From the NCBI RefSeq assembly GCF_031119335.1, contig NZ_JAVHXT010000004.1, positions 46,774 to 110,773 on the forward strand: a DNA stretch of 64,000 bases. Reading direction: 5' to 3'. The notes under the pieces were generated by a model. The model made no database searches. It was not told the DNA's origin and saw only the letters and a program-made list of their open reading frames with translations. The stretch's first letter is position 1; each line of letters starts with the position of its first letter. This document shows positions 849-15,307 of this stretch, one piece after another. This DNA comes from Pedobacter sp. (GTDB lineage Bacteria; Bacteroidota; Bacteroidia; Sphingobacteriales; Sphingobacteriaceae). The translations under genes were made by a program, and so were the position numbers.

Positions 849-2168
849 ATGGCATCTGTTTTAATTATTGAAGACGACAGCACTTTCGCTCAGATTATTG
901 AAGGATTTTTAATTAAGAACAATTTCGAAGTAACTACCGTAAGTAATGTTGCCAAAGCTCTCAAATTAATTGCGAACGAAGATTTCCAACTTCTACTAAT
1001 CGATTACCGCTTACCAGACGGTACAGGTATAGATGTACTTAATCACAGAAGAGAAACTGGCCTATCAGTACCCGCAATTATCATGACATCATTTAACGAT
1101 GTTCGTACAGCTGTAAAGGCCATACATTTGGGTGCATCGGATTATATCACCAAGCCTATTAATCCCGATGAACTTTTAATGGTAATTAGCAACGCACTTA
1201 AGAAAAAGGAAACTCAAAAAAACACCGAAAACAATTTCATTCGAGGGAAAAGTGACGTTGCCAATAGGTTATATCAACATATAGACTTAGTTGCCGAAAC
1301 TGATATGTCTGTAGTGATACAAGGCGAAAGTGGTACCGGAAAAGAATTTGCCGCAAGAACCTTACACCAACAAAGCAAACGCAAAAACAAACCATTCATT
1401 GCTATAGATTGCGGTGCACTTTCTAAAGATTTAGCCGCAAGCGAACTGTTTGGTCATGTTAAAGGAGCTTTCACTGGGGCTGTTACCGATAAAAAAGGTT
1501 CGTTCGAAGCCGCAAATGGAGGTACTATTTTCTTAGATGAAATTGGAAACCTGAGCTACGAAGTGCAAGTTAAACTGCTTAGAGCTTTGCAGGAGCGAGT
1601 TATTCAACCTTTGGGCAGCAACAAACAAATTCCAGTTGATGTGCGTATCATTACCGCCACCAACGATGATTTGGCCAACAGCATGAAAAATGGCGAGTTC
1701 CGCGAAGACCTTTACCATCGTATCAACGAATTCAAAATTCAGTTACCACCGCTAAGAGAAAGAGGTTCAGATTTGGAGCTTTTCATCGAACTCTTCATCA
1801 AGATATCTAACGAAGAACTAAACAGAAACGTAAAGGAACTGGATAAAGAAACTCGAAGTCTGCTACTTAAATACGATTGGCCAGGCAACCTCCGTGAGCT
1901 ACGAAACGTAATTAAGCGCATGGTTTTGCTTACCGCTGGCAGTGTTGCCACCGCCGATAGCTTGCCAGATGAAATGAAGATTGCTGTTGCAAATGAAGTT
2001 CCGCTAGACAATCCATCTGATTTGAAAGCGGTGAACGAAAGCAACGAAAAAGCACTCATTGCCGAAACTTTAACCAAAGTGAAGTACAACAAATCTAAAG
2101 CAGCAAAACTGTTAAATATCGACAGGAAAACACTGTACGCCAAAATGGAGCGCTACGGAATTGATTAG
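849..2168 (+). CDS. Sigma-54-dependent NtrC-family response regulator (REC-AAA+-Fis HTH)
   Basis: REC domain (IIEDD..LLIDYRLPDG), GESGTGKE, GAFTGA and C-terminal Fis-like HTH. Confidence 0.95.
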   Translation: MASVLIIEDDSTFAQIIEGFLIKNNFEVTTVSNVAKALKLIANEDFQLLLIDYRLPDGTGIDVLNHRRETGLSVPAIIMTSFNDVRTAVKAIHLGASDYITKPINPDELLMVISNALKKKETQKNTENNFIRGKSDVANRLYQHIDLVAETDMSVVIQGESGTGKEFAARTLHQQSKRKNKPFIAIDCGALSKDLAASELFGHVKGAFTGAVTDKKGSFEAANGGTIFLDEIGNLSYEVQVKLLRALQERVIQPLGSNKQIPVDVRIITATNDDLANSMKNGEFREDLYHRINEFKIQLPPLRERGSDLELFIELFIKISNEELNRNVKELDKETRSLLLKYDWPGNLRELRNVIKRMVLLTAGSVATADSLPDEMKIAVANEVPLDNPSDLKAVNESNEKALIAETLTKVKYNKSKAAKLLNIDRKTLYAKMERYGID

Positions 2169-13763: not shown

Positions 13764-14372
13764 TCAGTTTTTATACATTGGAGCTATCATTGTCCATAGC
13801 TTTTTTCCCTGTTCAGTTCCTTTTAATTCGTTGCTCAATTTATCAAAATAAATTTTCAATGTGAGCTCGCCCTTAAAATAAGGTGCGGTCTTCGCCAAGC
13901 CTATCAAAATCCGTAATAAAGTTAATGATACTGGAGAATTTGGATATTTATCGAAAAAATCCAAATAGGATTTATTTCGTAAACATAGAAACATTTCATC
14001 CAATTCTAGATTGTATTGCCCGCCTTTAACTATAGCCTCCTTCGCTACTTTTCCAGCGACAATATATAAATTTTCAATCGCTATGGTACGAGAGTCTTCA
14101 AGACCATTCTTTATCATTTGATAAGCTTGCTCATTAGACAAAGAGTCTGACCAGAAAAAGATAGCGCCAAGTTCATAGCCTTCCTTCTTTGGCAACGTTA
14201 TCTTAAAATCCTTATTGATAATTTTGGCGGAAAAGATTTCTTTACCAAACCCCACATAAGCATAAGTAGATTTTCTATCAACGATTTCGCCTGTAATAGA
14301 TATTACCTCAGTCTGCGCATACAGACCGAGGTTTATAAAAACCAAAATAAAAACGGATGCTATAATTTTCAT
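13764..14372 (-). CDS. Secreted protein resembling a DUF4369-type N-domain of TlpA-like proteins, without a thioredoxin domain
   Basis: Signal peptide; ITGEIVDRKSTYAYVGFGKEIFSAKIINKDFKITLP pattern; no CxxC. It lies 17 nt downstream of the GG-leader gene. Confidence 0.55.
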   Translation of the reverse strand: MKIIASVFILVFINLGLYAQTEVISITGEIVDRKSTYAYVGFGKEIFSAKIINKDFKITLPKKEGYELGAIFFWSDSLSNEQAYQMIKNGLEDSRTIAIENLYIVAGKVAKEAIVKGGQYNLELDEMFLCLRNKSYLDFFDKYPNSPVSLTLLRILIGLAKTAPYFKGELTLKIYFDKLSNELKGTEQGKKLWTMIAPMYKN

Positions 14373-14389
14373 CGTTTACTAATTTAATT

Positions 14390-14647
14390 TTAACTGTAAT
14401 GCCCAGGCAAAGTATAAGGCTGAATCATTTCTTCATATGCCTTGATGCAACCCTCCGACCCAGTGTCATACATTATTTGCTTAACTATATCATTTTCCTC
14501 AGCTTCTATATCTCTAGCAAGCTGTTCAGCACACATCTTAAGGGCAGTTTCTGGACTTATAACTCCCCCCATAACTTTTTTCATTTCTTCTCTGCTAAGT
14601 GGTTTCGCTCCCCCAAAATCAATCTTATTTAAATCTAAATTTTTCAT
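14390..14647 (-). CDS. Double-glycine-leader peptide (Bacteroidetes GG-leader natural-product-precursor-like)
   Basis: MKNLDLNKIDFGGAKPLSREEMKKVMGG leader followed by a 57-residue core with two Cys. Confidence 0.75.
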   Translation of the reverse strand: MKNLDLNKIDFGGAKPLSREEMKKVMGGVISPETALKMCAEQLARDIEAEENDIVKQIMYDTGSEGCIKAYEEMIQPYTLPGHYS

Positions 14648-14672
14648 AATTGTACTTTTGACAGTAAGTTTT

Positions 14673-14763
14673 ATAGGCCCTCCACGCTGGCCTATTTACG
14701 GCGATGCCAATAAACGTCGGCATTCGTTTATTAAGGCAGTTTCGCTTGCAATCGTGCTGCCTT
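14673..14763. repeat. Cluster of three consecutive perfect inverted repeats in the divergent intergenic region
   Basis: ATAGGCC/GGCCTAT (14673-14695), AATAAACG/CGTTTATT (14709-14732), AAGGCAG/CTGCCTT (14733-14763). Confidence 0.75.
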
Positions 14764-14818
14764 ATTTATTTTAAAAGCTTTTCATAAAGCTAAACAACTC
14801 ATCTCCTCAGCCAAAATT

Positions 14819-14844
14819 TTCCGTGAATAAAATTATTCACGGAA
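14819..14844. promoter_or_regulatory. Perfect palindrome, 12-bp arms with 2-bp spacer; candidate operator
   Basis: TTCCGTGAATAA-AA-TTATTCACGGAA directly upstream of the XRE regulator. Confidence 0.65.
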
Positions 14845-14947
14845 TTACCTGCGTTACTTTTATCTTTAACAATTACCTACCAATGAATATGTTTAAAGCA
14901 AAATTAGTCCTTGATAAAATTAAGGCAAAACTTTATCACGAGAAGAA

Positions 14948-15307
14948 TTGAAAACCGTTTTTGGCGGTTGCGAAGAATACATTCGCCGCTACCGAGATGA
15001 AAAATGCCTAAGCCAAGGATACATGGCTACCAAATTGGGTATTAGTCAAAGTACCTATCAGAAAATAGAAACGGGAAAAGTTAATGTAACTAAAGAAAGA
15101 TTGCTGGAAATAGCCAATATTTTAGGAAAAGAAATAGAAGATTTTCTGCCCGATAGCAGAAAAAACACCTTAGACAAAAGCGACATAGAAGCTTTAAAAG
15201 AAATTATTACTTTGCAAGCCCAAGAAATAAAAGAGCTTAAACTTTTGTTAAGTCAAAAAGGTTGGTCTTCAACTACCTGTTCCGATTTATCGGAAAGCTT
15301 AGACTGA
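14948..15307 (+). CDS. XRE-family helix-turn-helix regulator
   Basis: LSQGYMATKLGISQSTYQKIETGKVNVTKERLLEIANILG; TTG start overlaps the TGA of a 22-codon ORF beginning at 14883. Confidence 0.85.
   Translation: MKTVFGGCEEYIRRYRDEKCLSQGYMATKLGISQSTYQKIETGKVNVTKERLLEIANILGKEIEDFLPDSRKNTLDKSDIEALKEIITLQAQEIKELKLLLSQKGWSSTTCSDLSESLD

Follow-up and report, generated by a model that had tools for sequence, protein, structure and literature searches.

Within the 64-kb stretch of DNA analyzed herein (the window), a gene for an XRE-family regulator and a gene for a GG-leader peptide precursor were arranged head to head, separated by a perfect inverted repeat, candidate promoters for both genes, and a structured RNA (Table 1). 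The precursor was followed by a 202-aa gene with a signal-peptide-like N-terminus, for which neither Pfam nor NCBIfam gave a match. Genes of similar appearance, judged by eye, occupied the same place after the precursor at loci in G118, G134, G027, and G028, and a signal-peptide-like gene directly after the GG peptide recurred in L006, L009, L016, L017, and L099.

Table 1. Features of the regulator–precursor locus (window coordinates)
Feature	Position	Strand	Basis or remark
202-aa gene, signal-peptide-like N-terminus, downstream of precursor	13764..14372	-	ORF list
GG-leader peptide precursor, 85 aa, MKNLDLNKIDFGGAKPLSREEMKKVMGG-	14390..14647	-	ORF list, leader profiles
Three-hairpin structured RNA, precursor 5′ UTR	14665..14763	-	Model matches, covariation
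Possible precursor promoter, TTG-N19-TAGCTTTA	14785..14814	-	Consensus match; TTG 17 bp from operator centre
Perfect inverted repeat TTCCGTGAATAA-AA-TTATTCACGGAA, probable operator	14819..14844	.	Palindrome; covaries with recognition helix in homologues
Possible -7 box TACTTTTA of regulator promoter	14855..14862	+	Consensus match only; -33 region overlaps operator
22-codon leader ORF, reads MNMFKAKLVLDKIKAKLYHEKN	14883..14951	+	ATG start; stop TGA 14949-14951
Frame-break interval, if a single 1-base change	14924..14935	+	Inference: after XRE-frame TAA, before conserved leader codons; homologues in frame
Leader-like motif LSREELKTVFGG in XRE frame	14933..14968	+	Codon reading, leader profile, pattern scan
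XRE-family regulator ORF, 119 aa	14948..15307	+	TTG start overlaps TGA of leader ORF

The regulator ORF encoded an HTH_3 domain (PF01381; 53.1 bits against a gathering cut-off of 23), located at approximately 14981–15145. As described in the initial annotation, an ORF of 22 codons preceded it from the ATG at 14883, and in the letters TTGA at 14948–14951 the stop codon of the first ORF overlapped the start codon of the second, the arrangement of a translationally coupled pair. Immediately 5′ of the HTH domain, the XRE-frame codons that follow a TAA at 14921–14923 read GKTLSREELKTVFGG-CEEYIRRYRDEK and included the FGG of a cleavage site. The resemblance that had been proposed between these codons and the leader of the divergent gene was borne out: in a six-frame scan of the window, the core GG-leader pattern matched in only two places, at 14933 and in the divergent gene (LSREEMKKVMGG). 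The XRE-frame motif was also the top match of the whole genome to the leader_Chryseo profile (NF047798), at 20–22 bits and thus slightly under the cut-off of 23.5, while the read-through N-terminus scored below both curated cut-offs (21.9 versus 23.5 bits for NF047798, and 15.2 versus 25 for TIGR04149). This likeness was no accident of the window locus, in that homologues had a leader-like stretch in frame.

To delimit the family, 146 same-genus genomes were searched with the XRE frame as query and then with a profile. The subfamily was sharply bounded, comprising about 18 copies at 139–183 bits in 14 genomes (including that of the window), with the next score at or below 89 bits. About 16 of these copies were a single ORF in which an ATG and a leader-like N-terminus were followed without interruption by the XRE domain and then by a C-terminal helix or coiled coil. 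The N-terminal segment of the single-ORF homologues followed L-T/S-R/K-x-E-M/L-K-x-I/V (LTRxEMKxI) and was worn down in L011. The latter locus also had a second XRE gene (1151–1423, minus strand), in tandem with the family member and with a leader-like start of its own, LLSANEMKAF. Orthologues that start cleanly at the HTH domain were looked for, and leader-like N-termini in frame were found in their place. The leader-tagged regulator suggested initially is thus supported for the family, the same-genus homologues being in-frame leader–XRE fusions beside a GG-peptide gene, and the fusion is, judged by this comparison, the ancestral state of the family.

Wider samples added one remote member, in another genus (L098), which had neither a leader-like start nor a GG-peptide neighbour; the order-level search overlapped mostly with the same-genus genomes. 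A scan of a genome collection with the regulator protein returned a single remote Clostridia match only. On this sampling, the subfamily is so far restricted to one genus, the gene content of which is, in our judgement, that of a Sphingobacteriaceae-type Bacteroidota. When the sequences in the PDB were searched with the family profile, no solved homologue was found at E 1e-6; NCBIfam gave no equivalog-level match for the regulator, and the open-licence papers searched contained no description of a GG-leader/XRE fusion.

Within the subfamily, pairing with the peptide gene was invariable. A head-to-head GG-leader peptide gene was present in 20/20 pairs examined, decayed copies and the window included, and the distance from start codon to start codon was 141–281 bp (235 bp in the window). 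Among fetched loci, a GG-leader ORF adjoined all 18 family members, 17 of these partners being identified by script and that of L015 (EVK), which escaped the pattern, being recognised on inspection. Of the control XRE loci drawn from the same searches, 0/37 had such an ORF within the fetched flanks. Genes flanking the pair varied (comF, nuoAB, a peptidase, and others), indicating that it is a stand-alone unit residing at several chromosomal sites.

With respect to export, no C39 domain or transporter was detected in the window genome (95% complete), and the precursor leader there was intact despite this. C39 was present in 12 of the 13 other carrier genomes, the exception being a genome that is 84% complete. 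In G118:C1:748000-760000 (L107), GG peptides and copies of the RNA were clustered with genes for C39 domains. In other parts of G118, several C39 open frames were short (144, 343, and 367 aa), which suggests decay or assembly errors.

In the window, the leader was out of the XRE frame by one base. The ATG at 14883 lay 51 bp from the operator centre, and the corresponding distances in two syntenic relatives, G047 (51 bp) and G118 (54 bp), point to this ATG as the ancestral start of the leader–XRE gene. G047 was in frame throughout. In G118 (83% identical), the leader was in frame and a 3-base insertion created a TAA after GGCEE, at the leader/XRE junction, while its precursor was frame-broken at a G-run. 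Since the junction TAA has no good restart codon, loss of function is tolerated in this lineage.

One origin raised at the outset for the window arrangement was a programmed -1 frameshift at AAAA, which would yield a free leader peptide as well as the fusion. The A-run is present at 14927–14930, and a lysine tRNA could in principle shift back by one base and pair again. However, there was no canonical tandem slippery heptamer, the run was not conserved as a slippery site, neither G118 nor G047 needs a shift there, and all clear homologues were plain in-frame genes. Given the lack of a conserved slippery site, we regard programmed frameshifting as very improbable. A break introduced by sequencing or assembly, the strain itself carrying an unbroken fusion, would be consistent with frame data that come from one assembly, a position beside a short A-run, and intact homologues. 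Against such an error, a 4-base run is a poor error source, the syntenic junction in G118 is disrupted too, and 0/22 comparable window genes were frame-broken relative to G118, making an error-prone assembly unlikely; we judge the artefact to be improbable.

A further explanation is that the module is decaying in the window lineage since the export machinery is gone, such that no functional regulator is made. The frame break in the window, the different break and the broken precursor in G118, the decayed family copies elsewhere (L102, and a truncated copy in L101), and the failure to find a C39 gene all fit this account. The XRE body, on the other hand, had a dN of 0.068, a dS of 0.77, and a dN/dS of 0.09 over 90 codons between the window and G118, similar to the neighbouring comF, and hence the protein was under selection until a recent time, or remains so. 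Additionally, the window precursor is intact, its operator is perfect, and the TGA/TTG overlap offers a restart. Loss of the regulator by decay therefore seems to us rather unlikely, although it deserves consideration. Translational coupling through the overlap, also among the initial suggestions, is possible and would agree with an XRE body under purifying selection. Damage of recent date, or a gene that is split but coupled and restarts at the TTG, is likelier than programmed frameshifting, and the simplest reading of the window is that the tag is less needed there, with translation of the XRE body resuming at TTG 14948 or the body having been lost only lately.

We then considered the leader-like segment itself. 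In the C39 peptidase LahT150, a hydrophobic groove accommodates leader residues -4, -7, and -12; cleavage is impaired when a charged residue is placed at -4 or -7 and by most substitutions at -12 (PMC6363468). Across 19 regulators, the hydrophobic character of these positions was kept, with L/V/M at -12 in 19/19 (L itself in 17), M/L/I at -7 in 15/19, and I/V/L at -4 in 18/19. Further pseudo-leader positions were R/K at -10 (17), E at -8 (16), and K/R at -6 (all 19). The GG at -2/-1 was retained in 5/19 and lost in 14/19. The regulator N-terminus is, on these residue patterns, a pseudo-leader in which the recognition residues are kept and the cleavable GG is mostly lost. AlphaFold modelled the leader part as a short helix at low confidence and the HTH domain and C-terminal helix confidently, such that the leader segment is predicted to be a flexible tag.

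Regulator N-termini resembled the leader of their own partner over those of others (753 versus 629 ± 27, with 0 of 20,000 permutations as high), in tests that, like those for covariation, are inflated by the relatedness of the loci; the own partner was not the top-scoring leader for many loci (ranks 0–16). Regulators with a long N-terminus faced long-type leaders in 6/6 cases. Between N-terminus and partner leader, synonymous difference was saturated and non-synonymous difference limited (pS 0.78, pN 0.30). Chance resemblance to a leader was considered and rejected on the DNA similarity between regulator and precursor, the retention of residues, and the two-match pattern scan.

That DNA similarity is, however, also what would be expected if a local duplication of the adjacent precursor gene had supplied the 5′ end of the regulator gene, the segment then having no leader function and providing only a start and an N-terminal helix. 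The 5′-end similarity was about 70–77% in several loci and stood above 200/200 shuffles in L009, L012, L017, L099, L100, and the window, and both the frequent loss of GG and the low model confidence in the leader part are in keeping with such neutral capture. Yet the leader-recognition residues were kept while neighbouring and GG positions drifted, and in L017 eight of nine residues matched the partner with codons differing at six of those eight, indicating that the match is maintained at the protein level. We accordingly consider capture without leader function somewhat unlikely, although the N-terminus common to the family may be a mere relic of its ancestry or may function in dimerisation. 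The suggestion that the segment is a decayed duplicate of the precursor holds in part: the first codons of the regulator look related to the leader of the precursor, but the module, taken as a whole, is old and maintained.

The palindrome lay 34–84 bp from the regulator ATG across loci, mostly at 40–58 bp, and varied together with the recognition helix: QS[AT]YxKIE helices (K-type) were paired with GAATAANNTTATTC (GAATAA) in 13/13 cases, and QSTYQR[IL]E helices (R-type) with GCATAANNTTATGC (GCATAA) in 5/5. These operator positions come from a pattern scan, as a plain palindrome scan misplaced operators at several loci. A second, weaker copy was located exactly 21 bp nearer the precursor (mean mismatch 4.3 versus 8.3 ± 0.7 at other offsets) and formed the best upstream match in 13/20 loci. 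The helix covariation and the second copy together make it very likely that the palindrome is the operator of the regulator. In many loci, a TTG-N18-21-TAnnTTTG-like precursor promoter was found about 15–18 bp past the nearest operator (17 bp in the window), both promoter positions being placed by consensus match. This arrangement leads us to infer that the regulator represses itself and activates the precursor: with an operator over its own -33 region, the regulator would repress its own gene, and with one just upstream of the -33 box of the peptide promoter, it would activate or otherwise control the peptide gene.

Building on the fusion, the pairing, the retained recognition residues with loss of GG, and the operator covariation, all of which, like the RNA covariation, were observed by comparison, we consider it probable that the window gene belongs, as a frame-broken copy, to a genus-restricted XRE family whose members carry a non-cleavable leader copy of their divergent peptide for export-linked control. 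The flexible pseudo-leader would dock on whatever reads the leader of the peptide, for which the transporter's C39 domain is the simplest candidate, and expression would in turn track export capacity or precursor level, which would give the leader mimicry its reason. In the window, translation of the XRE body most likely continues from TTG 14948 through coupling, the alternative being a very recent break. A more specific and quite tentative form, which we rate as doubtful, has the transcription factor act as a sensor, its non-cleavable leader being docked to the C39 exporter as long as no precursor awaits export and being freed when precursor accumulates (or the reverse), which would tie transcription of the peptide to its export.

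Each of the known systems that the module recalls differs from it in some respect. It resembles XRE/Cro-CI regulators (HTH_3, PF01381) in an HTH domain above cut-off, a C-terminal helix, and probable palindromic operators two helical turns apart, and departs from them in its leader-like N-terminal extension and obligate divergent GG-peptide partner. With Bacteroidota GG-leader peptides (NF047798, TIGR04149) it shares the L-S/T-R/K-x-E-M/L-K-x-I/V-x-G-G pattern, as found in its own partner peptide, whereas in the regulators the scores stay below the cut-offs, a DNA-binding domain follows the motif, and the GG is usually lost. Similarly, the -4, -7, and -12 positions of C39/PCAT (AMS) recognition, as in LahT150, are retained in the regulator N-terminus, while the cleavage site is mostly lost, the carrier is a transcription factor, and the interaction is putative. 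In streptococcal Rgg GG-peptide loci (e.g., rtg), an XRE-type regulator controls a GG peptide, as is proposed here. Rgg senses imported SHP-type peptides via a repeat domain and, to our knowledge, carries no leader copy. How bacteria match their output of secreted GG peptides to the capacity for export is known largely from two-component or Rgg circuits in Gram-positives. Here, regulation and export of the peptide may be linked through the tag-like front end of the regulator, in a compact two-gene module of one Bacteroidota genus in which the regulator itself bears the export tag. Should the pseudo-leader bind the exporter, the module would constitute a minimal export-sensing switch, of which the window copy, its tag being separated and its genome having yielded no exporter, would be a natural knock-out of the pseudo-leader part.

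Finally, we examined the three-hairpin RNA upstream of the precursor. A model built from six copies gave about 70 matches in 41/146 same-genus genomes, that of the window included, and many of these shared stretches with C39 genes. In the plus-strand fetched loci, the RNA ended about 19–25 nt 5′ of the ATG of a small GG-leader peptide ORF. In an alignment of 43 copies, standard pairs made up 91.7% of pair cells, and 22/23 pairs had changed on both sides; the covariation score was 0.54, compared with 0.21 for shuffled and at most 0.11 for slid alignments, the alignment being fitted to the model. The intergenic RNA had no match in Rfam 15, was confined to the window genome within a thinly scored phylum sample, and was not described in the open-licence papers searched; it is possibly a new cis-regulatory RNA. 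An extra copy was seen just past the regulator stop, on the opposite strand, in L017 (1904–1996, minus strand), L099 (1908–2002, minus strand), and L016 (1353–1446, plus strand), and is perhaps a trace of the insertion of the pair.
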